23,583 nucleotides of DNA, from positions 1 to 23,583 of IMG/VR virus record IMGVR_UViG_3300023257_000470; one strand, written 5' to 3'. Positions 3,992 to 23,583 of the stretch are shown piece after piece (positions within the stretch are counted from its first letter, which is position 1; each line of letters begins with the position of its first letter). The translations under genes were made by a program, and so were the position numbers. The notes under the pieces are model-generated. The model did not search any database. It worked only from the letters and a program-made list of their open reading frames with translations, and was not told the origin of the DNA. Source of the DNA: a virus.

Positions 3992-4042
3992 AAAAAATAA
4001 ATTTAATTATGAAAAATATATCAAATTTTAATGAATTTAAAA
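3992..4042 (+). repeat. Duplicated leader and N-terminal coding segment, copy 1
   Basis: This 51-bp stretch (18 nt of leader plus the first codons of the 4009 gene) recurs at 4557-4607 with about three mismatches and no gaps. The first 34 bp are identical. The reading frame is kept, so both proteins begin MKNIS-N/K-FNEFK. Confidence 0.8.
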
Positions 4043-4557
4043 ATATTAATTTTATAAAAATAAATAAATTATTAACTGAGGGATGGTTGAATGATGAAAC
4101 AGAAAAAAGGGCAGACAAATATTTTAAAAAATTAGTACCCAGTACAGGAAATTGTGAAACTGTAGAAGGTGAAATACTTAGAGCAATTAGTAAAATATCA
4201 TATAGATATTTTAATGATGGAGACTATTACTACGAAGGATATGGGACACAAACTGCTGGTAGTTCACATGCATATTTATCAGAATCAGAATATATTGATG
4301 AAAATCTACAAAAGAAAATTAATGATGAGTTTGATTTAATGGAATGGAGTAATGATTCAATATATGAAAAAGGTTTAGAAAATATTTTCAATTTAATATT
4401 AGATTATATAGAATTAAAAAATGGAAATTATACTAAAAATTCTGAAAATATGTTCAATTTTAAGTCGTTATTTATTGATGAAACATTGGACGATGATGAA
4501 ACATTGGACGATTTTGAAGATGAAGATGAAGATGAAGATGAAGATGAAAATTATTAA
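4009..4557 (+). CDS. Unknown acidic protein with capsid-targeting-like N terminus
   Basis: 182 residues, family not recognised. The N terminus MKNISNFNEF followed by KLLTE|G at residues 20-25 has the form of a T4 capsid-targeting leader with an (L/I)-x-E prohead-protease site; cutting after E24 would leave a protein starting GWLNDETEK. The middle contains a Tyr/Gly-rich stretch (YYYEGYGTQTAG). The C terminus is extremely acidic: an 18-bp repeat (4477-4512, twice ETLDDD-like) is followed by five GAAGAT hexamers (4516-4545), giving a run of Glu-Asp. The start is chosen for its position after the TATATA box and its AATTATG context. The next gene begins 17 nt after the stop with a near copy of the same leader. 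An internal head protein, or a DNA-mimic-like acidic protein, is possible but is inference. Confidence 0.8.
   Translation: MKNISNFNEFKNINFIKINKLLTEGWLNDETEKRADKYFKKLVPSTGNCETVEGEILRAISKISYRYFNDGDYYYEGYGTQTAGSSHAYLSESEYIDENLQKKINDEFDLMEWSNDSIYEKGLENIFNLILDYIELKNGNYTKNSENMFNFKSLFIDETLDDDETLDDFEDEDEDEDEDENY
4477..4545 (+). repeat. In-frame tandem repeats encoding acidic tail
   Basis: Two exact 18-bp copies (4477-4494, 4495-4512) are followed by five GAAGAT hexamers (4516-4545). All are multiples of three, so copy-number change would lengthen or shorten the acidic tail without a frameshift. Confidence 0.85.
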
Positions 4558-4607
4558 AAAAATAAATTTAATTATGAAAAATATATCAAAATTTAACGAG
4601 TTTAAAA
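4557..4607 (+). repeat. Duplicated leader and N-terminal coding segment, copy 2
   Basis: Partner of 3992-4042, offset by 565 bp. It begins at the last base of the stop codon of the 4009 gene and supplies the leader and first 11 codons of the 4574 gene. The TATATA box of copy 1 lies outside the repeat and was not copied. Confidence 0.8.
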
Positions 4608-5065
4608 CTCAGAAGAATATTAAAAATGAAAAATTTATAAAAGAATCTGTGACTTGGTGTACTCATAAGAAAAAATGCACAATAAATGAATGTTATTTCA
4701 ATGATGAAATGTGTCCTATTGTTAATGGATTAGTAAAACCTGATGAAGATTGTAATTCAACAAATGAAGGATTTACTGGGAGATTATCAAAATTTATAGG
4801 GAAAAATGAATATAATAAAACATTAGATTATATTAAAAGAGCTTTATTAAATTCTGAAAAATATAAAAGTTATAAAGTTGATAAAAATATTTTAATTAAA
4901 GATGCAGTTAAAGGATTAGTGCAAAAAATAAAATTTGCAAAGAAATTTAAAGATAATGAAAAATTATTAAACTCGTTAGTTGAAGAAATTGTTAAAGATT
5001 TGAAATCTAAGAAACATGGTCAAATTAATGAAAACAAAAAAGACATTAAAAGAATTAATTTCTAA
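4574..5065 (+). CDS. Unknown Cys-containing protein with capsid-targeting-like N terminus
   Basis: 163 residues from ATG at 4574. The open frame extends upstream to 4421, but that part overlaps the 4009 gene in another frame. The 4574 ATG has the duplicated leader and the AATTATG context, so it is the likely start. The N terminus MKNISKFNEFK and FIKE|S at residues 21-25 parallel the preceding gene and again place a possible protease site after E24. Residues about 25-55 contain four Cys in a CTHKKKC...CYF..EMC arrangement, then GLVKPDEDC, which could bind a metal or form disulfides. The remainder is Lys-rich and probably helical. No family is recognised. It is probably co-transcribed with the 4009 gene, 17 nt upstream. 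Confidence 0.8.
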   Translation: MKNISKFNEFKTQKNIKNEKFIKESVTWCTHKKKCTINECYFNDEMCPIVNGLVKPDEDCNSTNEGFTGRLSKFIGKNEYNKTLDYIKRALLNSEKYKSYKVDKNILIKDAVKGLVQKIKFAKKFKDNEKLLNSLVEEIVKDLKSKKHGQINENKKDIKRINF

Positions 5066-5071
5066 ATTTTC

Positions 5072-5080
5072 TTATATATT
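5072..5080 (+). promoter_or_regulatory. TATATA-type box before the 5096 small ORF
   Basis: TTATATATT followed by AAAAATC, 15 nt before the ATG at 5096. It fits the recurring box and suggests that a transcribed gene once began, or still begins, at 5096. Confidence 0.4.
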
Positions 5081-5095
5081 AAAAATCAGACAATC

Positions 5096-5218
5096 ATGGG
5101 AACATGAAAAATAAACATAAATCCAAAAGGTATTAAAAGTTTGATGACAGCATTAAATAATTCTAAATCAAATGCAGTAGCAAATGGTAATTCAGATACA
5201 TATTATTTTTTAAAATAA
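5096..5218 (+). pseudogene. Possible broken small gene with in-frame TGA at codon 4
   Basis: ATG at 5096, properly spaced behind a TATATA box, opens a frame with TGA at codon 4 (5105-5107). The same frame then stays open to TAA at 5216-5218, reading KININPKGIKSLMTALNNS and ending DTYYFLK. An internal ATG at 5144 would give a 24-residue peptide. The composition after the TGA looks protein-like (Asn/Ser/Ala/Gly). The simplest reading is a TGG-to-TGA nonsense mutation in a roughly 40-residue protein. A real 24-residue peptide from 5144, or chance, are alternatives. No homologue is recognised. The rest of 5219-5356 holds only the inverted repeat at 5316-5337. Confidence 0.35.
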
Positions 5219-5315
5219 ACAATGTGAAAATAATATCCAACAGTAAATTTTTTTAAAATATCAATAAATATCAAATAAATTAGTATTTGGCCCATATTTA
5301 TAAAATATATAACTC

Positions 5316-5337
5316 AAATAACTACTAATAGTTATTT
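5316..5337. promoter_or_regulatory. Perfect 9-bp inverted repeat before the Hc1-like gene
   Basis: AAATAACTA, a CTAA loop, then TAGTTATTT, followed by TTAAAAAA, 19 nt before the ATG at 5357. It could be an operator or 5'-UTR hairpin of the Hc1-like gene, or a weak terminator of the 5096 unit. The stem is AT-rich and weak, so function is uncertain. Confidence 0.4.
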
Positions 5338-5356
5338 TTAAAAAATAATTATAATT

Positions 5357-5545
5357 ATGAATTTAGAAGAACTTTATTTAGAAATTGAAAACCAATATCT
5401 AATTGTAGTAAATCGTCATGCAAAATTTGTTGAAAAAGGAAACAAAACTGCGGAAGCTGATGTGCGTAAAGCGTTGGGAGAAATTAAAAAACTTATAACA
5501 CCTTATAGAAAAGCATCTAATGCTGCTGTTAAAGCAATGAAATAA
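5357..5545 (+). CDS. Histone H1-like DNA-binding protein, Hc1 family
   Basis: 62 residues. The stretch KFVEKGNKTAEADVRKAL, then GEIKKLITPYRKAS, closely follows the Hc1-type pattern seen in small Bacteroidota histone H1-like proteins: EKGNKxAxxxxRKAxxEIxKLxxxxRK. These are basic helical proteins thought to bind and compact DNA. The gene stands alone, with an inverted repeat upstream and a strong terminator at 5572-5606 just after it. Its codons are less AT-biased than its neighbours' (GCG, CGT and TTG in the stretch around 5450-5480), which suggests acquisition from a bacterial host. A phage could use such a protein on its own or host DNA; that is inference. The start has the AATTATG context. 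Confidence 0.75.
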   Translation: MNLEELYLEIENQYLIVVNRHAKFVEKGNKTAEADVRKALGEIKKLITPYRKASNAAVKAMK

Positions 5546-5571
5546 AAACTGCAACAATCAAAAATGTATAA

Positions 5572-5606
5572 AAACATCAAAGAATTTTTCTTTGATGTTT
5601 TTTTTT
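5572..5606 (+). terminator. Rho-independent terminator after the Hc1-like gene
   Basis: An 11-bp perfect stem, AAACATCAAAG (5572-5582) pairing with CTTTGATGTTT (5590-5600), has a 7-nt loop and is followed directly by a run of T. The T-run leads into the promoter box of the next gene at 5604-5613. Confidence 0.85.
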
Positions 5607-5613
5607 ATATATA
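5604..5613 (+). promoter_or_regulatory. TATATA-type promoter box of the 5637 gene
   Basis: TTTATATATA, 23 nt before ATG at 5637, followed by CTTAAAAATAAA. It is embedded in the end of the terminator's T-tract, so one unit ends and the next begins within a few bases. Confidence 0.5.
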
Positions 5614-5636
5614 CTTAAAAATAAATACAATTAATT

Positions 5637-6140
5637 ATGACTGATGAAGAATATTTAAATCTTTTTAAAAAAATTAAAAATGATGATGAAAATTTGAATA
5701 AAACAAATCAAAATGAAATGGAAAATTTAAATGAAGTAAATCAAAATAAAATAAATATTGACCCTGATCCTTGGCAAAATTTACAAAATTTAAATGAAAC
5801 CCCAGTATCAAAATATAATATGAATGAAAATTTAAATGATGGATGGGGAACACAAGATTTTGTAATTGAAAAAAGAATGAATGGTCAAGTTATTACAAAT
5901 AATGACCCATATCAAACAAAAAAAATTAAACAAAAAACAGAAAATTTAAATGGATTAGATCAATTTGTTGATGATGAACCATTAAAATCTGTTAATGAGG
6001 TATATCAAACTAATCAAGGATTAGAACCACCAACAATTAATGAAAAATTATCTGATATTGATATTGTTTCAGTAGAATTATTTGAAAGAATGCATACAAA
6101 CGCAATGATTACTTTAAAAAATCATCCAAAATTTAAATAA
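5637..6140 (+). CDS. Unknown Asn-rich low-complexity protein
   Basis: 167 residues, family not recognised. The first 60 residues repeat an N-x-x-ENLN-x-x-NQN theme (ENLNKTNQNEMENLNEVNQN), indicating internal repeat expansion and probable disorder. The last 35 residues (INEKLSDIDIVSVELFERMH...NHPKFK) look more ordered and may be the functional part. There is no signal peptide, membrane segment or capsid-targeting leader. The start is set by the AATTATG context and the box at 5604-5613. The following gene starts 2 nt after its stop, so the two are translationally linked. Function unknown. Confidence 0.75.
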   Translation: MTDEEYLNLFKKIKNDDENLNKTNQNEMENLNEVNQNKINIDPDPWQNLQNLNETPVSKYNMNENLNDGWGTQDFVIEKRMNGQVITNNDPYQTKKIKQKTENLNGLDQFVDDEPLKSVNEVYQTNQGLEPPTINEKLSDIDIVSVELFERMHTNAMITLKNHPKFK

Positions 6141-6142
6141 AT

Positions 6143-7036
6143 ATGAAATATTTAAGAACATATAATGAATCTCACAACACATCAAAACGATATGGTGATA
6201 TTTTATCAGAAGGTCAATTCAATAAATTATTAGAAAAGAATTGTAAAAATTATATTGATATTAATAATCAAATAAAAATGTATCGTGGAATTGGAAACTA
6301 CATAAATCTATTCAAAATTTTAGAATTTAAAAATCATTATTACTTAAATCCAAAAAATCATTATAGACATTCTATTGAACCAGAGAATATTCATGTAATA
6401 TTAATGAGTGAAATGGAACAATGGAAAGATTTTCCACCATATAATCAATCAGTTATTTGTTCTACTAATAAAATAAGTGCAGAGAGTTATGGAGAGTTAT
6501 TTGAAATAATACCATATGATAATACAAAAGTGGGGGTTTGTTCTCATTCTTCTGTATGGGGTTCTTTTGGAGGTTTTGGAAAAAAATCCATTATTAAAAT
6601 GATTCATAATTTTCTTGAATATTATCCAGCAGATTGGGGAGCAATACAAGATGAAATAAAAAATATAGGTATTGAAAAGTTATCACAAGACAAACTTGAT
6701 TCAGATTTCATACATTCACTTTTATATTATAAAGAAAAGGGTGTATTTAGATATATTAAAAAAGGAGACTATTTACATACACCAAAAACTGGAAATTCTG
6801 AAAAAGAAGAAGAAGAAGAATTAAAAAATTTCAAGAAAAAGATGGATAAATTAACCACTAATGATATAATCGAATTTATTAATTTTTTATTTGAACCAAA
6901 AAATAATGGATTTAATTCAATTAAATATGATGGTAATTACACCACAAAAATATATAAAAATTATACTGATTTCAATACTGAAAATTTACAAACTTGGTGT
7001 GGAGGACCAGTTTTAATGAAAAAAATATTTATTTAA
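6143..7036 (+). CDS. ADP-ribosyltransferase-like protein with capsid-targeting-like leader
   Basis: 297 residues. The N terminus MKYLRTYNES followed by DILSE|G at residues 19-24 resembles T4 capsid-targeting leaders with a prohead-protease site after E23. The body has features of the R-S-E type ADP-ribosyltransferase fold: a MYRG motif at 46-49, then CSTNKISAESYG at 106-117 in the place of the S-T-S/NAD-binding strand, followed by FEIIPYDNTKVGV as the next strands. A catalytic Glu near the C terminus (around TENLQTWCGGP) is not certain. In T4, Alt is an injected, head-packaged ADP-ribosyltransferase, so leader and fold would make sense together. The gene starts 2 nt after the 5637 gene and has no promoter box of its own. 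The fold assignment is moderate; a non-catalytic relative is possible. Confidence 0.65.
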   Translation: MKYLRTYNESHNTSKRYGDILSEGQFNKLLEKNCKNYIDINNQIKMYRGIGNYINLFKILEFKNHYYLNPKNHYRHSIEPENIHVILMSEMEQWKDFPPYNQSVICSTNKISAESYGELFEIIPYDNTKVGVCSHSSVWGSFGGFGKKSIIKMIHNFLEYYPADWGAIQDEIKNIGIEKLSQDKLDSDFIHSLLYYKEKGVFRYIKKGDYLHTPKTGNSEKEEEEELKNFKKKMDKLTTNDIIEFINFLFEPKNNGFNSIKYDGNYTTKIYKNYTDFNTENLQTWCGGPVLMKKIFI

Positions 7037-7044
7037 ATATAAAA

Positions 7045-7067
7045 GTACCTTGGCAGTTCGCTTGGAA
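7045..7067 (+). other. Short GC-richer patch between ART-like gene and homing endonuclease
   Basis: This stretch (AGTACCTTGGCAGTTCGCTT and 3 more bases) is far richer in G+C than any nearby intergenic DNA. It lies just before the first copy of the 24-bp direct repeat. It may be a scrap of a displaced gene or part of an endonuclease target; nothing in it is recognised. Confidence 0.35.
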
Positions 7068-7072
7068 GAATA

Positions 7073-7096
7073 TCAATATTTAATATATAATAAAAA
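7073..7096 (+). repeat. 24-bp direct repeat flanking EDxHD endonuclease gene, left copy
   Basis: Starts TCAATATTTAATATATAA and is identical over 24 bp to 7991-8014. It contains the TATATA box (7079-7090) that probably drives the 7109 gene. Confidence 0.75.
7079..7090 (+). promoter_or_regulatory. TATATA-type promoter box of the 7109 endonuclease gene
   Basis: TTTAATATATAA followed by TAAAAATAAA, 18 nt before ATG at 7109. It is a typical member of the recurring box. Confidence 0.5.
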
Positions 7097-7108
7097 TAAA
7101 GATGATAT

Positions 7109-8008
7109 ATGTCGAGAAAATTAACTAATGAACAATTTATTGAAAAAGCTATGAATATTCATAATAATAAATATGATTATTCTTTAGTTAAATATATCAA
7201 TTCAAAAACCAAAGTAAAAATAATTTGTCCAATTCATGGAGTATTTGAACAAAGTTCTCAAAAACATTTACATAATAAAAGAGGTTGTCAAAAATGTGGT
7301 GGATCAAAAAAATTAACAACAGAAGAATTTATTAATAAATCTAATATAATTCATAATAATAAATATGATTATTCATTAGTTAATTATATTAATAATTCTA
7401 TAAAAGTGAAAATAATTTGTCCTATTCATGGTGAGTTTTATCAAAATCCAAATAATCATATATCTAAAAAATATGGTTGTTCAAAATGTAGTAATAATAG
7501 AAAATTAACAACAAAAGAATTTATTGTCAAATCTGATAAAATTCATAATAATAAATATGATTATTCATTAGTTAATTATATTAATGCACACACTAAAGTT
7601 GAAATTATTTGCCCTATTCATGGATTGTTTAAACAATCTGCAAATAGTCATATGAGAGGTATTAATTGTCCAAAGTGTAGTGAAAGTAAAGGAGAAAAAG
7701 TAATATCAAAATTATTAAACATAAATAAAATCAACCATATAAGACAACAAAGATTTAAAAATTGTAAAGATAAAAGAACTTTACCATTTGATTTTTATTT
7801 ACCTAATTATAATTTGTGTATTGAATTTGATGGTCAACAACATTTTGAATTATTTAATAATTTTTGGGGTGGTAACAAAACTCTAAAATTAACTCAAAAA
7901 CATGATGAAATAAAAAATCAATATTGTCTTGATAATAATATTAAATTAATAAGAATAAAATATAATGAAAATATTGAAGAAAAATTCAATTCAATATTTA
8001 ATATATAA
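7109..8008 (+). CDS. EDxHD-type homing endonuclease with three zinc-ribbon repeats
   Basis: 299 residues. Three tandem repeats of about 65 residues (roughly 5-65, 68-130 and 131-190) each read F-I-x-K-x-x-x-IHNNKYDYSLVxYIN, then CPIHG and finally CxxC (CPKC in the last). This gives a CxxH plus CxxC zinc-binding set per repeat and presumably DNA recognition. The C-terminal domain (192-299) starts SKGEKVIS. It carries FDFYLP (D228), IEFDGQQHF (E239, D241, H245) and QKHDEIKNQYC (H265, D266), the layout of the Vsr-like EDxHD homing nucleases found free-standing in phages. It would cut DNA at a target in genomes lacking the gene. It is flanked by a 24-bp direct repeat; the right copy includes the stop codon. 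A paralogue lies at 12969-14051. Confidence 0.85.
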   Translation: MSRKLTNEQFIEKAMNIHNNKYDYSLVKYINSKTKVKIICPIHGVFEQSSQKHLHNKRGCQKCGGSKKLTTEEFINKSNIIHNNKYDYSLVNYINNSIKVKIICPIHGEFYQNPNNHISKKYGCSKCSNNRKLTTKEFIVKSDKIHNNKYDYSLVNYINAHTKVEIICPIHGLFKQSANSHMRGINCPKCSESKGEKVISKLLNINKINHIRQQRFKNCKDKRTLPFDFYLPNYNLCIEFDGQQHFELFNNFWGGNKTLKLTQKHDEIKNQYCLDNNIKLIRIKYNENIEEKFNSIFNI

Positions 8009-8822: not shown

Positions 8823-8834
8823 ATAAACAAAATT

Positions 8835-11126
8835 ATGTTAAAATATAAATCATTTTCAGATAAATTATTTGAATCAGCTCCAAGAATACCAATATCAGAA
8901 GATTATTGGATTAAAAAAGGTAAAATAGGTAAAGAAGTAATGTTATTTTTTCACGATGATCTTGATGGGATCTTTTCTGCTGTAGCAATGAAAAATTATT
9001 TATTAGGTAAAGGATTCAAACTTCATGGTTATGGGATTGTAAATTATCAAGAAGGTTGGTCAACAACTGAACTAGATGACAAATATATTAATATAGCATT
9101 AGATTATGCTGAAAATGTTGACGGTATTAATATTTATATGGATCATCATGGTGAATTTATGGAAGAAGATAATGAAGAAAGAAATAGAGGAGAAGGTGCG
9201 GTTAAAACAGATACTGGTTCTGCATATGAAGGTATTATGGATCAATTAGGATTACCAATTGATTCAGGTATTCTAAATGTAATTGATATGGTAGATTCAG
9301 CCAAATATGATGATTATAAGATTAAACAGGAAGTTTTATTAAAATTTGATCCAGGAAGTTTTAAAAATAAATTAGAATTTGCTGCAGCATTTAATCAATT
9401 ATTAAAAAGAAGTGATCATAGAACATTTATAGAAGTTGTAGCAAATTCAAAAGATATTGCACCAAGTATTTATAATATTTATAGATTATTTAGATTATTA
9501 TATCCTGCAAATAATTTAAATATTTGGGATCTTAAAAAAGCTGCAAAACAAGCCGAATATTTAGATAATAATGGAAAACCTGATGTACCAGCATATTTAG
9601 AACATTTAAAATTATATAATAGAAAATTATTAAAATCTTTTGAGAAAGATTTTATTGGTGATGCAAGATGGAGGTTAGGACAAATGCAAAAAAAGACAAG
9701 AGGTTATAATAGAAAAGAATATATTAGAAATCAAACACAATTTCAAGAAAATTTTACAAAAGCTTCAAAATATGGGAGACCAATAATAAAATTAGATGGT
9801 TATCAAATACTTGGAACTATGGTTTTTGTTCCATCTGGTACTTGGGCAAATGCATTAAGAGCTCGTTCAATATTTGAAACAGATACTGAAATAATTAATG
9901 AATTTAATAAACAATTTAATGAAGATAGAGTTCCTACAATTGAATATAATGTTTTAAAAGAGAGTCCAATATATAATAAACTTGAGCCGATAATTGGTCA
10001 AAAAGTAGAATTAACAGGAGATTTAGATTATCAAAATAATCCTACAATTAAAATAACTAAAAATGTAACTACTGATTCATCTATTGAAGGTATTACAGGT
10101 TTTTTATCTAGAAATAAAGAAAAGGGTATAGTATTTAGAGCAAAACAACCAATATTTTGGATATTATTACAATATGGTAACACATTACAAGTTTGTTCAT
10201 ATCATAAATTAGATAAATATCCTAAAGAATATTTACCAAAAACAAAAGATGGGAAAAATATAACAAATTTGGGAAAATACACACAAGATTTATTATATAA
10301 TATGGCTAAATACTTTGGTTATAATATTAATATAATACCTGAAACAACAACAAAAGCTGGTGGTCATGTTGGTATTGGTTCTATTTCAAATATTTTTGGT
10401 AAAGTACAAAATGATCAAAATATAGTACCAGAACCTGGAACTAAAAATAGTCAAATACATATTTCAAATAAATCATTTATGAAAAAATATTATAATACTC
10501 GATTTTTAGATTTAATTAAAAATAAAATGATTGAAGATTTATCTGGAATACCTTGGGGAAATTTAAAAATGACTTGGGGAGATCCTGAAGAAACACCAAA
10601 AACTAAACCAAAAACATCTGAAATGAATAAAAAAGTTGTATTAGCTGATGAAATTAGAAAAGAAAAAGATGTGATTCGGGGTAATAAAGAATTAAAAGAA
10701 CCAGAAGATTCAAATGATGATAAAATAATACCAATATCTCTCGAACTCCCAACAAGACAAGTAGTTGAAAATAAAAAAACAAAACCAAGAAAACCTAAAT
10801 ATAATCCAGTAAGAATGATAGATAAAAAATATGCAGATGACTATGGACAAAAAATGAAAAAATATAGAGAATGGGAAGATCAAAAAAATCTTTTAAGAGA
10901 GTTTAATTCATACACACAACAAGTATTAGATTTTATTGATTATCCTTGGCAAGAAGATAATGAAATAGAATTTGTATCTTTATTAGATGAATACAGAGAA
11001 GAAATAGAAAAAAATATTAAATATGATATTAAAAATTATTTAAAATCTATGAATAAAGAAAATCAAACTCAACTTTTACACATGTCTGATGGGTTTCTTA
11101 CTGCATTTGAAAATTTACTTAAATAA
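8835..11126 (+). CDS. DHH/DHHA1 family phosphoesterase, capsid-targeting-like leader
   Basis: 763 residues. The N terminus MLKYKSFSDKLFE|S fits the packaged-protein leader pattern (possible cut after E13). DHH-family metal motifs follow: FFHDDLDG at 38-45, YMDHHGEF at 101-108 (the DHH signature) and VIDMVDSAKYDD at 149-160. A DHHA1-like substrate-binding motif, KAGGHVGIGSIS, appears near 507. Between them lies a large insertion, and a Lys/Pro-rich, probably helical tail follows residue 560. DHH enzymes use two metals to hydrolyse phosphodiesters; members include RecJ exonuclease, nanoRNases and cyclic-dinucleotide phosphodiesterases. At 763 residues it is much longer than NrnA-type enzymes. 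Substrate is unknown. If packaged it would act very early after infection. It begins 12 nt after the endonuclease and lacks its own TATATA box, so it may share transcripts with the genes upstream. Confidence 0.8.
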   Translation: MLKYKSFSDKLFESAPRIPISEDYWIKKGKIGKEVMLFFHDDLDGIFSAVAMKNYLLGKGFKLHGYGIVNYQEGWSTTELDDKYINIALDYAENVDGINIYMDHHGEFMEEDNEERNRGEGAVKTDTGSAYEGIMDQLGLPIDSGILNVIDMVDSAKYDDYKIKQEVLLKFDPGSFKNKLEFAAAFNQLLKRSDHRTFIEVVANSKDIAPSIYNIYRLFRLLYPANNLNIWDLKKAAKQAEYLDNNGKPDVPAYLEHLKLYNRKLLKSFEKDFIGDARWRLGQMQKKTRGYNRKEYIRNQTQFQENFTKASKYGRPIIKLDGYQILGTMVFVPSGTWANALRARSIFETDTEIINEFNKQFNEDRVPTIEYNVLKESPIYNKLEPIIGQKVELTGDLDYQNNPTIKITKNVTTDSSIEGITGFLSRNKEKGIVFRAKQPIFWILLQYGNTLQVCSYHKLDKYPKEYLPKTKDGKNITNLGKYTQDLLYNMAKYFGYNINIIPETTTKAGGHVGIGSISNIFGKVQNDQNIVPEPGTKNSQIHISNKSFMKKYYNTRFLDLIKNKMIEDLSGIPWGNLKMTWGDPEETPKTKPKTSEMNKKVVLADEIRKEKDVIRGNKELKEPEDSNDDKIIPISLELPTRQVVENKKTKPRKPKYNPVRMIDKKYADDYGQKMKKYREWEDQKNLLREFNSYTQQVLDFIDYPWQEDNEIEFVSLLDEYREEIEKNIKYDIKNYLKSMNKENQTQLLHMSDGFLTAFENLLK

Positions 11127-11183: not shown

Positions 11184-11188
11184 ATTTG

Positions 11189-11220: not shown

Positions 11221-12129
11221 ATGATTTATAATAAAGAAAAAATTGAGAAAATTCACAACAAATATGTAAATGATGAAAAAATAAAAAGAACAGAAAAAAT
11301 ATATTATAATAATATTATAGGATTAAGAACATCTAATATTGTTTATGATTATAATCATGAAGAATTAATAGAATATGCAAAATGTTTTTCAGATGAAATT
11401 TATTTTATTGAGAATTATTTTCATATCAAATTACATTCATATCAGATAAAAATAATTGAACATTATAAAAATAATAGATTTAGTATTTTTATGAATTCAA
11501 GACAAACTGGAACATTTTCAATATTAATAATGTTATTCATTCATTCAATGATTTTTAATCAAGATTATAGTATATTAAAAATTGATCATAAAATAATGGA
11601 AAATATAGAACATTTTAAAAAAATAAAAAAATTATATATTCAATTACCATTTTTTTTACAAATTGGAGTTACAAATTGGAATTTAAAAGATATTAAATTA
11701 GAAAATAAAAGTTTTTTTCAATTACAATCTTCAAAAAATATAGGACTTGGATATAATCCAAGTTTATTTATAATTAATAATTTTTCACAAATACCAGATA
11801 GTTATATTTATGATATATATAATTCTATAATTCCAACTATTTCTTCTCAGAAAAATAATAAATTTATTATATCATCAAGACCAAATGGTTATAATTTCTT
11901 TCTTAATCTTGTAGAAAATTCAGAAAGAAGTGATAATGATCCATTAAAAAATAACTATAATACATTACGAACTTATTGGTGGCAAATTCCTGGTCGAGAT
12001 GAAAAATGGAAAGATGAAGTAATTAAAAAAATTGGATATGAATTATTTTTACAAGAATATGATTTAAGTTTTATGACTAAACAAAATTTAGAAAGAAGTA
12101 AAAAATTAAATAAAATATTAGGTATTTAA
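11221..12129 (+). CDS. Terminase large-subunit ATPase-domain relative with lost catalytic residues
   Basis: 302 residues, about half the length of a T4 gp17-like terminase (near 600); the C-terminal nuclease domain is absent. The ATPase-domain path is clear: the adenine/Q-motif region LHSYQIKIIEHY, Walker A position MNSRQTGTFS (91-100), then LPFFLQIGVTNWN, SKNIGLGYNPSLFIINNFSQIP (Walker B at 181-188), SSRPNGYNFF (C-motif at 218-223) and WWQIPGRDEKW. Where gp17 has SRQLGKT this protein has SRQTGTF, so the Walker A Lys is gone. Where gp17 has the Asp-Glu pair of Walker B it has Asn-Asn. It therefore should not hydrolyse ATP. The frame is intact with its own promoter box, so it looks like a retained paralogue rather than debris. 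It converges on the small terminase gene 19 bp away. A regulatory or packaging role is inference. Confidence 0.75.
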   Translation: MIYNKEKIEKIHNKYVNDEKIKRTEKIYYNNIIGLRTSNIVYDYNHEELIEYAKCFSDEIYFIENYFHIKLHSYQIKIIEHYKNNRFSIFMNSRQTGTFSILIMLFIHSMIFNQDYSILKIDHKIMENIEHFKKIKKLYIQLPFFLQIGVTNWNLKDIKLENKSFFQLQSSKNIGLGYNPSLFIINNFSQIPDSYIYDIYNSIIPTISSQKNNKFIISSRPNGYNFFLNLVENSERSDNDPLKNNYNTLRTYWWQIPGRDEKWKDEVIKKIGYELFLQEYDLSFMTKQNLERSKKLNKILGI

Positions 12130-12968: not shown

Positions 12969-14051
12969 TTAAATTATTTCTTTAAGTTTATCACCTATTT
13001 TTTCATTATATTTAATTCGTAATAATTTAATATTATTATCAAAACAATATTTATTTTTTATTTTATCTCGTTTTTGTGTATTTTTTAATCCTTTTTCATC
13101 ACCAAAATATTGAATAGCTTCAAAATGTTGTTTTCCATCAAATTCTACACATAAATTATAATCAAGCAAATAAAAATCAAATAATAATTGATTAATATAT
13201 TTACAATTTTTAAATTTTTTCTGTCTTATATATTTAATATTATTTTTATCTAATATTTTAGATATTTCTTTTTCACCTTTACTTTCATTACATATTGGAC
13301 AACCTGTATTTTTGTTAATATGATTAGATGAATCTGTAATGAATTTACCGTGTTTTTTACATATTATTGTAATATTTTTATGTGATCCATCATATTTTGA
13401 AAAAGAATAATCATATTTATCATTATGTATTTTTTTTGCTTTAATTATATATTCAGAAGTAGAATATTTTTTTGTTCCATAACAATATGGACATCCTTTT
13501 CCACTTAAATGACTTGTTGGAGTTTGAGTAAATATATTATCACATTTATTACATTTTATTTTAATTTTTGTTCTATTATTTTTATATTCACATAAATCAT
13601 AATTATAATGATTTTTATGAATTTTTTTAAAATTTTCAATTATTTCTATTTTCAATTTTTTATATCCACTACATCTTGAACAACCATGACCATTTAAATG
13701 AACTTTTGCATATTGTTCAAATTCTCCATGTAAAGGACAAATAATTTTTATTTTTGTATTTTTATTTTTATATTTTATTAATGTATAATCAAATTTATTA
13801 TTATGAATTATGTTTGCTTTTTTGATAAATTCTTCTTTTGTCATTTTGTATCTTTTACTACATTTAGAACAACCTTTCCCTTGTAAATGATTTCCTGGAG
13901 ATTGTTCAAATATTCCATGTATTGAACATATTATTCTAATTTTTAAACAAGCATTAACATAATTAACTAATGAATAATTATATTTATTACCGTGAATTTT
14001 TTTGGCATTCTTTATAAATTTTTTAGTTTTTATAATATCATTTTCATTCAT
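12969..14051 (-). CDS. EDxHD-type homing endonuclease with four zinc-ribbon repeats
   Basis: 360 residues, paralogous to the 7109 gene. Four repeats (about 8-68, 69-130, 131-193, 194-256) share IHxNKYDYSL, a CSIHG/CPLHG (or CNKC, CKKH) pair and a GC-x-x-C pair. One repeat (CNKCDN) swaps His for Cys, still a plausible zinc site. The nuclease domain has SKGEKEIS, FDFYLL (D292), VEFDGKQHF (E303, D305, H309) and TQKRDKIKNKYC, where RD replaces the HD seen in the other copy. It sits between the Mre11-Rad50 fusion and the small terminase, a common kind of position for free-standing homing genes next to replication or packaging genes. Its start (ATGAATGAAAATGAT) mimics that of the terminase (ATGAATGAAACAGATGAT). 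A TATATA box lies 18 nt upstream. Confidence 0.85.
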   Translation of the reverse strand: MNENDIIKTKKFIKNAKKIHGNKYNYSLVNYVNACLKIRIICSIHGIFEQSPGNHLQGKGCSKCSKRYKMTKEEFIKKANIIHNNKFDYTLIKYKNKNTKIKIICPLHGEFEQYAKVHLNGHGCSRCSGYKKLKIEIIENFKKIHKNHYNYDLCEYKNNRTKIKIKCNKCDNIFTQTPTSHLSGKGCPYCYGTKKYSTSEYIIKAKKIHNDKYDYSFSKYDGSHKNITIICKKHGKFITDSSNHINKNTGCPICNESKGEKEISKILDKNNIKYIRQKKFKNCKYINQLLFDFYLLDYNLCVEFDGKQHFEAIQYFGDEKGLKNTQKRDKIKNKYCFDNNIKLLRIKYNEKIGDKLKEII

Positions 14052-14242: not shown

Positions 14243-17200
14243 TTAATATGTTATTTTTAATGAACTTATACCTTTATCATCTTTAAGAACTTCAATTAAT
14301 GCATCAAAATTAATTGGATGATTATGTTCAATTATAATTATTTTATCTATTTTATCTTTCATTTTTTCTAACATATCTTTAAAATATCCAATAGATTTAT
14401 TAACTAATTTTCCTGTAATTTCATCAAGTAATAAAAAATTAGGTTTAGATTTATGATTTATTGTTCTTAAAGCTAATTTTAAAGCTATTGCAGAAAATGT
14501 TCTTTCAGCACCAGATCCTTCTAACAAATTTTGAACAATGTCTTGTGCGAATTCCATATACATTTTCAAATTTAACTTTTCATCAAAAAAAATATTAAAA
14601 TCAACTGTTGATAATAAATCTGACAATTCCTGATTAATTAAATCTTTTGATTTCATTAATAAAAATGTTGGTATACCATCTCTATGAACACATCTTTGAT
14701 ATTCTTTTAAAATTTCTTCAAGATGAACTTGTTTCTTATATTTTTCCATATTTTCAGAAATATCTAATATCGAATTTTCAATTATATTAATATTATTAAT
14801 AGTTTCATTTATATTTGAATTTAAATCTTCTATTTCATTTTTAAATTTATTTATCTTTCCATCATATTCATTTATTTTCTCATTTATTAATTGATTTTGT
14901 TCAATAAATTTTATATGGTTATAATATTTGTTAATTTTTTCTTCTGCATTTTCAATAGTCAATTTTATATTAGCTATTTTTAAAGAAAGTTCATTATTAT
15001 TATATAAAAAAGTTTCATATGTTCTACTTTCCTCTTTATCTTTTTGAATTTTGTTGATATCATCTTGTGTATTAGATTTTTCAATACTTTTTTCTTTCAC
15101 TCTTTTATTACCTTCTGATTTTAACTTAATATTTTTTTCAATTTTTTCTTCAAGAATATTTTGTTCTTCAGTTATTTTATCAATATTCAATTTTAATTCT
15201 TTTGAAAATATATTCTTTTTGATATTTTTACATATATTATTTATTTCATCTATCTCATCTGATTTATCATCAATTTTTAAAATTATCTCATTTTTAAATT
15301 TTTCAATTTTAGAAGAATAAACACCAGTTTCTAAATTTTCTATTTTTTCTTTTAATTCTGAATTTAATTTTGTTTTTTCTTTTAATTCTAATTGATATTT
15401 TTTAACATCTGGCATTAAATCTTCAATTTGTTGTTTTAATTGAGATATTTTTTCTTTTATATTATGTTCATTGTTTTCTTCATAAGGTCTAAAACAAGTA
15501 GGACAAATTGTAGATTCTTCTATTTCTTTAATTCTTTTCTTTAATTCAATTCCTTTTTCTTTAATATTAGATAATTCTTGTTTTATAGATTTTATTTTAA
15601 ATTTAATATCTGTTCTTTTATCAATTATTTTTCTTTTTTCATTATTAAGATAATTTTCAAATTCATTATTTAATTTATCAATTTCAATTTCAATATTTTT
15701 CAATATCATTTTTTGTTTTGTGATATCTTTGTCTTTCAATTGTTCTTTTTTTAACTCTAAATTTTTAACATTATTATCTAATGTTGAATTTTTTGAATCT
15801 AATTGAGATAATTTTAATTTTAAATTTAAAATATGGTCATCAAGAGTTTTTAATGATTTTAAGAGAGTTTCATACTGTTCTTTATCATATGATATTTTTA
15901 GTGTTAACATAGTCTTAGAGTTGATCTTTTGTTGATTTAAATTGATCTTAATAGTATTTTGATACTCTTTAATTTTTTCATTAATATTATCAATATTTAG
16001 TTTTGAAACATCATCATCTATCTTATTTAATTTCTTAAATTCATTATCTCTATCAGTATTAAAAATACTTAAAGAAAAAGTAACTCCGGATTTTTCTTCA
16101 ATAAAATCTAACTTTTCTTTTTGATATGTTCTTAACATTTGAGATAGTTTATTCATTTCAATTTCTGTATCAGATAAATTTAAAGAAATTTTATTAACTA
16201 CAATTTCTTTCTTATAATCTTTAAATACTGCTAATTTTTTTTCAAATATATCATAACCTGCATCTCTAATAATTGAATCTATAAATGTTGCTCTATCTAT
16301 TGATATTAAATCATTTAAATTTTCTGAATTGATTAAAGCCAATCTAATAAAATCTGAAAAATCACCAACAATAGCATTTATCATTAATTGAGTTTCAGTT
16401 TTTCTTTCTCCTCTTAATTTTTTCTCCTCTTTTATTTCAATACCAAGATAATAATTAACATCTGTTGATACTGATTTGATTGTTTCTTTTGATGTCCAGG
16501 ATCTAATAGTTTCTCTTAAAACTGTGTATTGTTGACCATTTATATTTATAATCATTCCACCTGAACAATTATCAAGATTTCTTTTATTATTTATATAACG
16601 ATTATCACCAAATTTCTCTGTTTTACCACCACCTAATTTATTAGTTGCTAATGTTGTCCCATGAGTGATATAACAAATACCATCAAGAAGAGTTGTTTTG
16701 CCCATTTGATTTTCTTCTGAATGTAATTGAATTATACCATGAATATCATTCCAATCAATTGTTTCTTTATTATATGATTTAAAATTATCTAACCAAAATT
16801 GTTCAATATTCCATTGAACATTATTAGTAGTTGTTGATAATTCTAATCTATCATTAATAATATCATCAATATTTAAAATTTCATCAATAAAATCATCTTC
16901 AAATTTATTAGCTTTTAAGTATTCTTTAAAAATATTTTGTTGAATTATTTTATCATTAACATTTATAGATTCATTTAAAGAATCACTTGATATAATATCT
17001 GAATAAATTCTTGTTTTTTCATAAACAACTTCATCAATATCGAATTTATTTTTAATATATTTATTAATTTTTCTTTCATTTTCATTATTTACATTAGAAG
17101 TATAATCTGTCCATTTTATCTTAACTTTTGATTTATTAGTTATTAATTTATGATTAAAATCAATCAAATCATAATCATAATCTTTATTTATTTCAAATGT

Positions 17201-17947
17201 AATTTTTGTATAATCATTTTGTAAATTGTATTCCTTATATGATATATTTTTGTTTTCATCTATTTCCCATAATATAAAACCATGATTATTAGTTTTTTCA
17301 CCAAAAGATAATTGTATTAATGAACCAGGATATGCCGTAGTATCATTAAAAAATTGTCTAAGATGAATATCCCCAAATAAATTTAAATCGTTATTTTTAA
17401 ATTCTGATAATTTAATTAAATTCTTACTATTCATATTAATTCCAGTAGGTAATTTACTACCAAAAACAGGATCATGAAATAATCCAATATAAATTTTGTT
17501 TTTATCTTTATTATGTTGTATATTTTTCCAAGGAATAATTCTTTTTTCCAAATGAGAATAATTAACCCATATTATATCTTCTGAATTATCTTCAAAAAAT
17601 CCACTTTTATCTAAAAAAACAATATTTCTGTTATTCATCATTTTCACAATTGAACCAATTGATGAAACTCTTTTTAAATCTTTTTTACGAATTTCGTGAT
17701 TTCCTGGGACAACAATAACTTCACAATAATTAGATAATTTATCAAGTAATTCTGATGCTAATGTTTCTGATTCTAATGTGGTTGTTATAAAGGCATCTAA
17801 TGTATCACCCACTATTACAATTTTATCAGGTTTTATTATATCTAATTCTTTATATAATTTTTGAAATTGTTCTCTATATTTATAATGTTCTTCAGGATTA
17901 TTTACTATATGTACATCTGCAATATGTACTATTTTAATTTTATTCAA
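14243..17947 (-). CDS. Fused Mre11-Rad50 (SbcD-SbcC; T4 gp47-gp46) recombination nuclease
   Basis: 1234 residues in one frame. Residues 1-230 are an Mre11/SbcD metallophosphatase: ADVH (D11, H13), GDTLDA (D48), PGNHE (N83, H84), FHDP (H158) and FGDIH (D193, H195). Residues 240-375 form a linker with helices typical of Mre11's Rad50-binding part. From about 378 a Rad50/SbcC ATPase follows: FWLDNFKSYNKETIDW, Walker A SEENQMGKTT (410-419), a long coiled coil, a zinc hook CPTC at 815-818, the returning coil, an LEGSGAERT signature (1143-1151), Walker B FLLLDE (D1175, E1176) and the IIIIEHNHP switch. These complexes resect double-strand breaks and load phage recombination; in T4 they are two genes. 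The start is TTG, overlapping the TGA of the upstream RHH gene (TTGA); no in-frame ATG is near. A stop lies two codons upstream of the TTG. Confidence 0.9.
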   Translation of the reverse strand: MNKIKIVHIADVHIVNNPEEHYKYREQFQKLYKELDIIKPDKIVIVGDTLDAFITTTLESETLASELLDKLSNYCEVIVVPGNHEIRKKDLKRVSSIGSIVKMMNNRNIVFLDKSGFFEDNSEDIIWVNYSHLEKRIIPWKNIQHNKDKNKIYIGLFHDPVFGSKLPTGINMNSKNLIKLSEFKNNDLNLFGDIHLRQFFNDTTAYPGSLIQLSFGEKTNNHGFILWEIDENKNISYKEYNLQNDYTKITFEINKDYDYDLIDFNHKLITNKSKVKIKWTDYTSNVNNENERKINKYIKNKFDIDEVVYEKTRIYSDIISSDSLNESINVNDKIIQQNIFKEYLKANKFEDDFIDEILNIDDIINDRLELSTTTNNVQWNIEQFWLDNFKSYNKETIDWNDIHGIIQLHSEENQMGKTTLLDGICYITHGTTLATNKLGGGKTEKFGDNRYINNKRNLDNCSGGMIININGQQYTVLRETIRSWTSKETIKSVSTDVNYYLGIEIKEEKKLRGERKTETQLMINAIVGDFSDFIRLALINSENLNDLISIDRATFIDSIIRDAGYDIFEKKLAVFKDYKKEIVVNKISLNLSDTEIEMNKLSQMLRTYQKEKLDFIEEKSGVTFSLSIFNTDRDNEFKKLNKIDDDVSKLNIDNINEKIKEYQNTIKINLNQQKINSKTMLTLKISYDKEQYETLLKSLKTLDDHILNLKLKLSQLDSKNSTLDNNVKNLELKKEQLKDKDITKQKMILKNIEIEIDKLNNEFENYLNNEKRKIIDKRTDIKFKIKSIKQELSNIKEKGIELKKRIKEIEESTICPTCFRPYEENNEHNIKEKISQLKQQIEDLMPDVKKYQLELKEKTKLNSELKEKIENLETGVYSSKIEKFKNEIILKIDDKSDEIDEINNICKNIKKNIFSKELKLNIDKITEEQNILEEKIEKNIKLKSEGNKRVKEKSIEKSNTQDDINKIQKDKEESRTYETFLYNNNELSLKIANIKLTIENAEEKINKYYNHIKFIEQNQLINEKINEYDGKINKFKNEIEDLNSNINETINNINIIENSILDISENMEKYKKQVHLEEILKEYQRCVHRDGIPTFLLMKSKDLINQELSDLLSTVDFNIFFDEKLNLKMYMEFAQDIVQNLLEGSGAERTFSAIALKLALRTINHKSKPNFLLLDEITGKLVNKSIGYFKDMLEKMKDKIDKIIIIEHNHPINFDALIEVLKDDKGISSLKITY

Positions 17948-18133: not shown

Positions 18134-18143
18134 ATTAATATAT
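18134..18143 (-). promoter_or_regulatory. TATATA-type box of the leftward RHH/Mre11-Rad50 unit
   Basis: Minus strand ATATATTAAT followed by AAAAATAAGATATG, 16 nt before ATG at 18117. It is the left member of the divergent pair. Confidence 0.4.
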
Positions 18144-18213
18144 CATTTTCTTTTAAAAATGTTTATAAGAAAAATATTTAAAATATAAAAATCACTTTTT
18201 TTGACTTTTTTAT

Positions 18214-18226
18214 TTTAATATATAAA
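18214..18226 (+). promoter_or_regulatory. TATATA-type box of the rightward RHH/GIY-YIG unit
   Basis: TTTAATATATAAA followed by AATAAAGTTAATTATG; the box ends 13 nt before ATG at 18240. A TTGACT at 18201-18206 lies 7 nt upstream of the box, too close for a normal sigma70 -35/-10 pair. Confidence 0.45.
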
Positions 18227-18239
18227 AATAAAGTTAATT

Positions 18240-18413: not shown

Positions 18414-18414
18414 T

Positions 18415-19458: not shown

Positions 19459-19478
19459 TATATGTTTTTGTTGTATAT

Positions 19479-20087: not shown

Positions 20088-20103
20088 ATAATTTATATAT
20101 TAT

Positions 20104-21093: not shown

Positions 21094-21116
21094 ATGTTAT
21101 TTGACTTTGTTTTTAG

Positions 21117-21127
21117 TTATATATAAA
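21117..21127. promoter_or_regulatory. Shared TATATA-type box between divergent kinase and 21159 genes
   Basis: TTATATATAAA on plus, TTTATATATAA on minus. It lies 23 nt before the minus-strand ATG at 21093 and about 31 nt before the plus-strand ATG at 21159. Being near-palindromic it could serve both, though the minus-strand spacing and A-rich follow-on fit the other boxes better. Confidence 0.45.
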
Positions 21128-21158
21128 ATTTGATAGATAAAAAAAATCAATATATAAA

Positions 21159-22169
21159 ATGAGCCAAATTTTTAAAAATATAGACACAAATGAAAAAGTT
21201 AAAATATTAGAAGTTGATAAAGTTTTTTATACTTTAGATTCTGGTACTAAAATAGATCAAAATTTATTTAGACAGAAATATGTTCCTGTTATGGATATTC
21301 AACAACCTCAAAATATTCAACAACCTCAACAAAACACTCAACAATCTAAATCCGAAGTAATTGATCCAAATGAATTTTTAAATATGAAAACAGTTATAAC
21401 TAATGTTAATTCATTAAAAAAAACAAATACACAAAATATTACAGATATTCCTAATCAAACTGTTAAGGAAAATGTTTCTGTTGATGGTTTAGGTTCTCAT
21501 CAAATTGATATTAATAATGAAGAAGCTATTAATAATTTAATAAAACCTGTACAACCAACAAAACAAGTTAATGAAAATGGGTTAACTACAGAACAAGAAT
21601 ATATTAGAACCCAACAAATAGAACTTAATGGTATAGATCCATTTAAAGATAGAATTATCAAATATAGATTAGAAAATGGAATACATAATCAAACTCAACA
21701 ATCACAATTATCACAATCTCAAACTCAACAACCAATGAATAATCAAATTATTGAAGAAAAAGAAGAAGTAAAAATGTTTAAAAAATTTAAAAGAATTCAT
21801 CCTGTTAAAATTGATTTAAGTATTAGTGATAAAATTGCAAAACCACAAATTATAGAATTATTAGCAGATGGTATTGAGGGAGATATTATAGAATATTATA
21901 CTGATGAAATTTTTAATACATTTGTTTCAGATATTGATAAATTAAAAGAAAATATTTATAATCAAATTTATAAAATTGTTTATGGAGAAGATAGAAAAAT
22001 AAAAGAAAAAAGAATTGAAGAAGAATCAATAAATGGTGTTGAATTAATTAAAGGAAAAATGACAAAAACTGGAAAACAACAATATAAATTTATTAATACT
22101 GATGGAAACATAATTGATTGTTTAATTGAAACTGCTGAAAAAAAGGGTTATAAACCAGTAAAAAAATAA
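21159..22169 (+). CDS. Unknown Gln-rich protein with conserved-looking ends
   Basis: 336 residues, family not recognised. Residues 1-45 (MSQIFKNIDTNEKVKILEVD, then KVFYTLDSGTKI) look like a small beta-barrel or KOW/Tudor-like module. Residues 48-210 are low complexity, with Gln-Pro-Gln runs near 48-65 and 175-195, suggesting disorder. From about 205 an ordered part begins, KKFKRIHPVKIDLSISDKIA, then ELLADGIEGDIIEYYTDEIF and a helical YNQIYKIVYGEDRK. There is no signal peptide or leader for capsid targeting. It heads a four-gene rightward series (21159, 22181, 22792, 23217). A structural or scaffold role would fit its make-up, but nothing demonstrates it. Confidence 0.75.
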   Translation: MSQIFKNIDTNEKVKILEVDKVFYTLDSGTKIDQNLFRQKYVPVMDIQQPQNIQQPQQNTQQSKSEVIDPNEFLNMKTVITNVNSLKKTNTQNITDIPNQTVKENVSVDGLGSHQIDINNEEAINNLIKPVQPTKQVNENGLTTEQEYIRTQQIELNGIDPFKDRIIKYRLENGIHNQTQQSQLSQSQTQQPMNNQIIEEKEEVKMFKKFKRIHPVKIDLSISDKIAKPQIIELLADGIEGDIIEYYTDEIFNTFVSDIDKLKENIYNQIYKIVYGEDRKIKEKRIEEESINGVELIKGKMTKTGKQQYKFINTDGNIIDCLIETAEKKGYKPVKK

Positions 22170-22180
22170 AATTAAAAAAT

Positions 22181-22792
22181 ATGAAAGAATTAAAAGAATT
22201 AGAAAAATATATCACAATAAAAGAAACAGAATCAAATGTATTATCACTTTTATTTGTTGATTTTAAATATGATGAAAAAGTTGAAAATTTTAATGAAAGA
22301 CCTTTTGATAGGTTAAATTCAGATAGTTTAAATTCAGATAGTTTAAATTCAGATAGACCAGACGTATTCACTAAAAATTTGGAATTCTCCAAAACAGATA
22401 AATCATTAGCAAAATCATTATTAGTTGAAAAAATTATAGAATTATCAATTAAAAATAAAAATGATATATTAGATAAATTTTCTATGGTAAATGTAGATAA
22501 AAGTAAAATTGGAAGTAAAATTAAAAATGGATCATATTATATTGCTGCAGATGGTCGACTTGGCCCAGCAACTAATATGTTAATTTCCGAAAAAAATTAT
22601 GAAAAATATAATATTGGAAATATTAAACATAATATGGAAGTAATGTTTGATGATTTAGTTGATGATTTATTCATATATAAAAAAAATGAAATGGATAACC
22701 CAGGATTAGTTTTATGTTATAATAAAGATAAATATGAATTACTTGATATTGGATTTTATCCAGAAAAACAATTTTTAAAAATAACATTATAA
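22181..22792 (+). CDS. Unknown protein with SLNSD tandem repeat
   Basis: 203 residues, family not recognised. Near residues 44-58 three consecutive 5-residue units (RLNSD, SLNSD, SLNSD) come from a 15-bp tandem repeat. This hydrophilic stretch separates a short N-terminal part (KELEKYITIKETESNVLSLL) from a longer C-terminal domain. That domain contains GSYYIAADGRLGPATNMLIS and ends in alternating strands (NPGLVLCYNKDKYELLDIGF, then YPEKQFLKITL). It starts 11 nt after the 21159 gene, and its TAA shares a base with the ATG of the next gene (TAATG), so all are translationally linked. A structural accessory role is a guess only. Confidence 0.7.
   Translation: MKELKELEKYITIKETESNVLSLLFVDFKYDEKVENFNERPFDRLNSDSLNSDSLNSDRPDVFTKNLEFSKTDKSLAKSLLVEKIIELSIKNKNDILDKFSMVNVDKSKIGSKIKNGSYYIAADGRLGPATNMLISEKNYEKYNIGNIKHNMEVMFDDLVDDLFIYKKNEMDNPGLVLCYNKDKYELLDIGFYPEKQFLKITL
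22310..22354 (+). repeat. 15-bp in-frame tandem repeat, three copies
   Basis: Units AG(G/T)TTAAATTCAGAT at 22310-22324, 22325-22339 and 22340-22354; the last two are identical and the first differs by one base. Encodes (R/S)LNSD three times, so length change would keep the frame. Confidence 0.9.
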
Positions 22793-23172
22793 TGAAAATT
22801 CACAATAAATATATTAATGAAGCTAAACGAATTAGGTCTGATTATTTAAATTTCACCAATAATTTTATAAAAAAAGAAAAGTTAATTGAGAAATATAAAA
22901 ATAGAATTCTCAACCTTTTAGAATCTATGGAGAAATTTATTGAAAAGAATGAAGAATTAGATGAAGAATCATTAAAAGAAAAATTAAATGATGAATTAAT
23001 GGATATGAATACTAATATGGAAAAAATTCAAAATGATGTGAAAATATTAGATGAAAATATTAAAAAATTAAAAACTCAATCTAAACAACTTTATGCTACA
23101 ATTTCAACTGAATATCCAAATTTAGATGAAAAAAAAATTCAAAAACAAATATTATATTCTTTAGATAAGTAA
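22792..23172 (+). CDS. Coiled-coil protein with T4-like capsid-targeting leader
   Basis: 126 residues. The N terminus MKIHNKYINE|A has the length and form of the T4 internal-protein leader, recalled as MKTYQEFIAE with cleavage after Glu10: here I8-N9-E10 precede A11. The remainder is highly charged and helical, with heptad-like spacing of Leu/Ile (KLIEKYKNRILNLLESMEKF, then ELMDMNTNMEKIQNDVKILD), suggesting a coiled coil. No enzymatic motif is present. Start and previous stop overlap by one base (TAATG). A small, charged, helical protein with such a leader fits an internal head or prohead-core protein; this is inference from the leader and composition. Confidence 0.75.
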   Translation: MKIHNKYINEAKRIRSDYLNFTNNFIKKEKLIEKYKNRILNLLESMEKFIEKNEELDEESLKEKLNDELMDMNTNMEKIQNDVKILDENIKKLKTQSKQLYATISTEYPNLDEKKIQKQILYSLDK

Positions 23173-23188
23173 TTTTTATTTGGTAAAA

Positions 23189-23200
23189 TTTATATATAAA
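23189..23200 (+). promoter_or_regulatory. TATATA-type promoter box of the 23217 gene
   Basis: TTTATATATAAA followed by ACAAAAATAAAATT, 16 nt before ATG at 23217. It is the clearest example of the box plus A-rich follow-on. Confidence 0.5.
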
Positions 23201-23216
23201 ACAAAAATAAAATTAT

Positions 23217-23583
23217 ATGAAAATAAAGAATTTTTCAGAAATAAACAAAAATTTTGAGTCTATTAATGAAGCTAAAGGGACTACACCAAAAGCATTTGTT
23301 AAAGAAATTAATATATTAATGATTAAAGCTGAAAACCAAATGGATGATTTTGTGGAAACATTAGATGAAATTTCTAGAAAAGCGAATAGTGGAGTATGGT
23401 ATTTTAGTGGACAGATGATGAATAATTATCGTATTGATAAAAATGAAAAAGTTAAAGAATTATTTCAAGATTTCAAATCTGATATAAAAGACAATACTAA
23501 ATTTGCTATGAGAGATATCCGAAAATTATTTAATGGTTCAAAAAATAGATTTAATAAAATTAAATCGATAAATTTGAAACCAG
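23217..23583 (+). CDS. Unknown protein with capsid-targeting-like leader, 3' end outside window
   Basis: At least 122 residues, open to the window edge. The leader MKIKNFSEINKNFESINE|A gives an I-x-E|A site after E18, again of the prohead-protease form. After it, KGTTPKAFVKEINILMIKAE is followed by GVWYFSGQMMNNYRID and a basic helical stretch (KFAMRDIRKLFNGSKNRF). The family is not recognised. It has its own TATATA box 16 nt upstream and stands 44 nt after the coiled-coil gene. Confidence 0.75.
   Translation, partial: MKIKNFSEINKNFESINEAKGTTPKAFVKEINILMIKAENQMDDFVETLDEISRKANSGVWYFSGQMMNNYRIDKNEKVKELFQDFKSDIKDNTKFAMRDIRKLFNGSKNRFNKIKSINLKP

Follow-up and report, generated by a model that had tools for sequence, protein, structure and literature searches.

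Several otherwise unrelated proteins of an uncultured virus start with a short leader ending in glutamic acid, which is very probably a capsid-targeting sequence of the kind found in phage T4. They are encoded in the IMG/VR record IMGVR_UViG_3300023257_000470. The window which we have analysed is the entire fragment, 23,583 bases with a GC content of about 21%; it encodes a fragment of a T4-type terminase. Among named phages it is most closely related to two uncultured huge ones, LR756501 (735 kb) and LR756502 (642 kb): a DHH protein of the window is 38% identical to its homolog in LR756501, and an ART-like protein is 29% identical to its homolog in LR756502. In these relatives the same type of leader is found in many genes, and it matches a tandem repeat which is fused to the prohead protease.

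Six N-termini of this type had been described in an earlier note on the window, and all of them read as it stated. They are given below, with an arrow at the predicted cut. The scores come from a ten-column position matrix built only from leaders of LR756501 and LR756502, which has never seen the window; P values are obtained by shuffling within each protein.

4009..4080, forward strand: leader of a 182-residue protein, MKNISNFNEFKNINFIKINKLLTE↓G, 24 residues formed by MKNISNFNEF (with the FxxF part), a spacer and LLTE↓G; score 5.9, P = 0.09
4574..4645, forward strand: leader of a 163-residue protein, MKNISKFNEFKTQKNIKNEKFIKE↓S, 24 residues formed by MKNISKFNEF, a spacer and FIKE↓S; score 14.3, P = 0.001
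6143..6169, forward strand: leader of the 297-residue ART-like protein, MKYLRTYNE↓S, 9 residues; score 9.7, P = 0.006
8835..8873, forward strand: leader of the DHH protein, MLKYKSFSDKLFE↓S, 13 residues; score 9.5, P = 0.003
22792..22821, forward strand: leader-like start of a 126-residue helical protein, MKIHNKYINE↓A, probably not a leader; score 14.0, P = 0.003
23217..23270, forward strand: leader of a protein truncated at the contig end, MKIKNFSEINKNFESINE↓A, 18 residues; score 7.7, P = 0.03

Aromatic residues three positions apart (FxxF or YxxF) are found in the leaders at 4009, 4574 and 8835; those at 23217 and 6143 only approximate this arrangement. The window leaders end in (L/I)xE followed by a small residue. 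A leader may be viewed as two parts: a targeting part, with a basic or hydrophobic start and an aromatic-x-x-aromatic element (occasionally Leu/Ile), and a cleavage part, (L/I/V)xE and then a small residue. The two parts can overlap (YxxFIxE), stand in tight contact (YxLFE) or have a spacer between them (FxxF...LIKE, the layout of T4 IPI). In T4 residues 4 and 7 of the leader are used for targeting, residues 8 and 10 for processing (PMC9026906). The earlier note gave the leader of T4 IPIII as MKTYQEFIAE, about 10 residues long; the annotation places it in residues -10 to -1 with the mature protein after it. When our matrix is applied to 239 open reading frames (ORFs) of T4 it gives four hits, two of which are IPII and IPIII (MKTYQEFIAE↓A).

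Trained on both huge phages, the matrix places the six proteins within the top seven of the 20 window genes. They are the top six when it is trained on LR756502 alone, and six of the top seven with LR756501 alone. Other window genes (Hc1, TerS, RHH, kinase, endonucleases) had been considered devoid of the pattern; of the remaining 14 genes, a homing-type endonuclease at 12972 is the only one with a score near those of the six (6.0, just above the protein at 4009). A homolog search with the protein at 23217 found none.

The leader is strongly enriched in both relatives. Their gene sets were obtained by simple ORF calling with a minimum of 60 residues (957 genes in LR756501, 907 in LR756502); start sites are approximate. 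A strict pattern derived from the leader of T4 IPIII, [FYWH]xx[FYW][ILV]xE↓[SAGTN] within the first 30 residues, is present in 36 of the 957 and 16 of the 907 genes. After shuffling of the N-termini the counts are 1.6 and 1.4 (at most 6 in 200 shuffles), and windows which follow an internal methionine give an expectation of 2.9 and 1.1. Cross-training between the two genomes was a further control. The threshold of the matrix is the score exceeded by 0.5% of the internal-methionine windows; it marks 79 genes in LR756501 and 65 in LR756502, with 4.8 and 4.5 expected. Cross-trained matrices still mark 72 and 40 genes, for the same expectations. Leader genes adjoin each other somewhat more than expected. 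In phage CBB we found one leader in the 50 kb examined.

The leader is also gained and lost as a unit, as it is most clearly apparent in the DHH protein, whose predicted mature part is the following.

8874..11123, forward strand: predicted mature DHH-type phosphoesterase cargo, with HDDLDG, DHH and KAGGHxGIG motifs common to the LR756501 homolog

The assignment to DHH phosphoesterases, already proposed from the sequence, is supported through homologs: in that of LR756501 PF01368 is over the cut-off and the DHH and KAGGHxGIG motifs are present. A Pfam scan of the window protein itself gave no DHH hit, and a PDB profile search with it gave nothing. We collected 53 new IMG/VR loci, which correspond to 39 distinct sequences, or 41 with the window and LR756501; leaders were trimmed by eye at the boundary of the conserved core. 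A leader is present in 37 of the 41. Its final residue is Glu in 36 cases and Asp in one, directly before the core (E)(A/S)(A/S)PR(L/I)P...YW. The residue at P3 is hydrophobic in all 37, and 31 have the aromatic-x-x-aromatic element versus a background of 24%. The four homologs which have no leader (loci L132, L133, L166 and L174) start at the predicted mature N-terminus or within a few residues of it (for example MAAPKLP and MSAPRIP). Since they begin at this boundary, the leader is a detachable module. An RNA-ligase homolog has the leader MKKLHRYNSFIKE↓S in LR756502 and none in LR756501. Among the 136 tagged proteins of the matrix list there is no common domain.

The cleavage machinery is visible in the relatives. 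In both LR756501 and LR756502 a protein encoded beside the portal and gp23-type capsid genes starts with a protease of head maturation (phrog_207, E = 5e-27 and 6e-28), whose match to PF03420 is below the cut-off. After it the same chain goes on with a long scaffold-like region of tandem 14-residue repeats.

L011, 13913-16333: prohead protease fused to scaffold-like repeat region
L075, 5272-7368: prohead protease fused to scaffold-like repeat region

We consider this region a putative scaffold by its position between the protease and the capsid gene, as T4 gp22. The repeat has the consensus A-Y-S-E-Y-(L/I)-A-E-N-L-D-K-N-I, with the predicted cut at Y-S-E-Y-I/L-A-E↓N. Relatives of the protease-scaffold are found in 206 IMG/VR contigs and the repeats were read in 80 of them: there are 10-14 units per protein and 942 units in all. 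These have Tyr or His at P7, Tyr at P4, Leu, Ile or Val at P3 and Glu at P1, although P4 and P1 belonged to the search pattern. The residues which the repeat has as in the leader are Tyr P7, Tyr P4, Leu/Ile P3, Glu P1 and Leu/Val P2'. Independently of this search pattern, when internal hits of the leader matrix are counted throughout each genome, the protease-scaffold ranks first, with 6 hits in LR756501 (the next protein has 2) and 7 in LR756502 (the next has 3). A matrix made from the LR756501 leaders without the protease gives 9 hits in the LR756502 scaffold versus 2. The capsid propeptides seem to end in QMNE↓N and QINE↓N, with no aromatic residues. Therefore cleavage seems to need the last three residues only, and the aromatic pair appears specific to leaders and scaffold.

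Comparison thus gives strong support to the idea of a T4-style leader which a gp21-type protease cuts at (L/I)xE: IPII and IPIII were recovered blindly, the DHH leaders are modular, both relatives have a gp21-type protease-scaffold adjoining their gp23-type capsid gene, and the capsid protein has an (I/M)NE↓ site.

From these features we infer a likely mechanism. During the assembly of the head the leader would bind to the prohead scaffold, of which it most likely imitates a single unit, Y-S-E-Y-I/L-A-E-N-L-D-K-N-I-x; imitation is suggested because the aromatic pair is common to leaders and scaffold specifically. The gp21-type protease, which is the N-terminal domain of the scaffold polypeptide, would cut after Glu in the scaffold repeats, in the capsid propeptide and in the leaders. 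Once the core is cleared, the cargo would be free inside the head and would enter the host with the DNA; packaging and co-injection of the tagged proteins are proposed by analogy with T4. The import tag could then be equivalent to one cleavable unit of the scaffold repeat: the cargo would pose as scaffold and one protease would dissolve both. On this last proposal our judgement is evenly divided. It would suggest that the T4 capsid-targeting sequence also works by imitating a scaffold unit; in T4 the mechanism is given only as an affinity for the core (PMC9026906).

The ART-like protein has a full N-terminus MKYLRTYNE↓SHNTSKRYGDILSE↓G, with two candidate ends, at residues 9 and 23. The end chosen in the earlier note was LSE↓G (residue 23, position 6211), which aligns with an (L/I)TE kept among homologs. 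YNE↓S is better supported and is probably the boundary: LR756502 has many leaders of the MKHLKKYNE↓S class, and ART-like homologs have the leaders MKWLKTYKIFE↓N and MRYLKKYKVFE↓N. The cargo is given accordingly in the first of the following lines; the second describes an array in the Agrobacterium phage Atu_ph07.

6170..7033, forward strand: predicted mature ART-like cargo; phrog_12810, E = 9e-21; YRG motif
L045, 17484-28592: about 11 genes of Atu_ph07 in a tandem array, most of them ART-like, coding sequences (CDS) 53-63 by counting, at least 10 of them with W/LxxLxE leaders

In the window protein the YRG motif and S-x-S-like residues are conserved, and the ART label is not confirmed: profile searches found no Pfam or PDB match, and AlphaFold models were unusable, with a mean pLDDT of 32 from a single sequence and 42 from five. 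A homolog search found proteins of the same phage only, then four distant relatives. The Atu_ph07 array is made of homologs of the window protein, most of which start with M(K/R)WxQL(T/N)E↓ or close variants. The array falls inside CDS 31-76, a region from which, taken as a whole, 29 proteins were detected in the virion by mass spectrometry (PMC6102473).

Several observations weigh against capsid targeting or against the link with the scaffold. The window fragment has no protease, scaffold or complete capsid gene, and therefore the machinery is deduced from relatives which are about 30-40% identical in the shared proteins. No window protein matched PF03420 in a profile search, which is uninformative on the prohead protease since the window is only a fragment. 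The matrix trained on LR756502 places the LR756501 scaffold only tied first, with 3 hits. LR756504 has perfect scaffold repeats and few leaders (9 of 281); LR756500 has leaders and a degenerate repeat. In Atu_ph07 the leader is WxQLxE rather than YxxFIxE, and the scaffold is not repeated. There is no tight covariation of leader and scaffold repeat across phages, because Atu_ph07 has no WxQLxE repeat and that of LR756500 is degenerate. The neighbourhood of the head cluster is not rich in leaders (28 of 1423 genes). Genes homologous to those of T4 have a leader in 1 of 52 cases, which goes in the right direction but is not significant alone (P = 0.18).

The nature of the tagged proteins leaves room for a different destination. 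No domain is known for most of the 136 proteins of the matrix list, among which there are PPK2, methyltransferases, radical SAM proteins, IMP dehydrogenase, dephospho-CoA kinase, RNA ligases, one sigma factor and also the protease. Many are enzymes able to act in the infected cell (PPK2, RNA ligases, methyltransferases, IMP dehydrogenase, the sigma factor), as would be expected if the leader targeted the replication compartment, a membrane or a degradation or processing pathway and resembled that of T4 by convergence. We find this unlikely, since residue spacing is the same as in the proven T4 leader, IPII and IPIII were blindly recovered, and the head scaffold has the motif, while the propeptide of the capsid protein has the (I/M)NE↓ site. 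Leader genes also have an upstream element common to head genes: in LR756501 and LR756502 ATATATA is found within 70 bases upstream of 8 of 8 head and packaging genes; its frequency is 45% for leader genes, 5 of 25 for replication genes and 21-25% for the others. It is possibly a late promoter; as it was found by screening many words, its support is modest. The T4 late-promoter octamer TATAAATA is not enriched upstream of leader genes.

Chance is a second alternative: N-termini rich in K, N, I, F, Y and E, as expected in such an AT-rich phage, might give the pattern without any function. The bare pattern (L/I)xE↓(S/A/G) is only about twofold enriched, and the starts at 4009 and 23217 are weak when taken alone; that at 4009 is not significant by itself, but its first 12 residues are nearly identical to those at 4574 although the remainder of the two proteins is unrelated. 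The protein at 22792, which had been included in the set, probably has to be removed from it: the only homolog found, a 133-residue protein of LR756502, has IKR↓A in the place of INE↓A in an alignment which begins at residue 2-3, so that the alignment runs through the start without the Glu and the leader is not independent of the folded protein. From this alignment its match is probably a false positive due to chance. For the leader family as a whole chance is refuted by the shuffle and internal-methionine controls, to which the independent ranking of window genes and the exact module boundary in DHH homologs may be added, and it is a very improbable explanation; it may apply to single cases such as 22792 and 4009. 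Least credible of all is a DNA-level translation-start cassette, suggested by 4009 and 4574, which have their upstream sequence and first codons in common, with DNA identical in 28 of 30 bases from -20 to +10 and a similarity that decreases deeper in the leader: when phages are compared it is the protein residues which are constrained, as the P1 and P3 positions of the DHH leaders demonstrate, and leaderless homologs start at the mature boundary.

Other genes of the window have their own peculiarities. A 203-residue ORF at 22181-22792 matches two separated parts of the major capsid protein of LR756501 and LR756502 (about residues 103-187 and 433-573) with the middle missing: it is a shortened capsid-like gene. 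The terminase large subunit at 11221-12129 stops at 302 residues, while its homologs have about 750 in LR756501 and about 710 in LR756502. Endonuclease genes are found near it at 7109, 7965 and 12972, and a mobile element may have split the terminase. An SbcD-like metallophosphoesterase and an SbcC-like ATPase apparently share a single 1234-residue ORF at 14243-17947. On the reverse strand positions 1-3900 code for a long protein with repeated domains which resemble SprB-type repeats by eye, a hint of a Bacteroidota host; it has homologs in LR756501 (1550 residues) and LR756502.

If the leaders are indeed capsid-targeting sequences, a short sequence rule would predict the packaged and probably injected proteins of uncultured huge phages, which usually requires a cultured virus. 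The imitation of the scaffold, if true, would provide a general and evolvable route to load 60-80 different proteins per virion for injection, from a sigma factor, RNA ligases, polyphosphate kinase and methyltransferases to ART-like and DHH proteins. Our literature search, in which subscription journals and bioRxiv were mostly not covered, found no paper joining capsid targeting with huge or metagenomic phages.

Known systems share some of these features. In phiKZ and SPN3US (gp175 and gp245; PMC5694885) a gp21-related protease also cuts after Glu and many proteins are packaged and ejected. However the motif is SxE or AxE, several propeptides have over 100 residues and a short aromatic leader common to the proteins is not reported. 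In P1 both DarB and a reporter are brought into the head by an N-terminal signal of DarB (PMC9024508), but there is no consensus among Dar proteins. The closest case is T4, where this kind of targeting is already known: IPI, IPII and IPIII (Mullaney & Black 1996; reviewed in PMC9026906) have N-terminal leaders of 10-19 residues with an aromatic pair three apart and (L/I)xE cleavage, otherwise unrelated proteins carry the common leader, and the gp21-type protease adjoins the gp23-type capsid gene. IPI, with MKTFKEF...ITE↓A, has the spacer layout of 4009 (FNEF...LLTE↓G) and 4574 (FNEF...FIKE↓S). The T4 capsid cleavage site AFGSFLTE↓A carries the aromatic pair, unlike the capsid propeptides of LR756501 and LR756502; therefore the two roles are less separate in T4. 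Its gp22 region is not joined to the protease and has no tandem repeats, whereas these huge phages fuse protease and scaffold and the repeat matches the leader. T4 has only a handful of tagged proteins, versus about 60-80 in each of the two huge phages. What appears to be new in them is this scale, along with a leader which is modular among homologs and matches a repeated scaffold.

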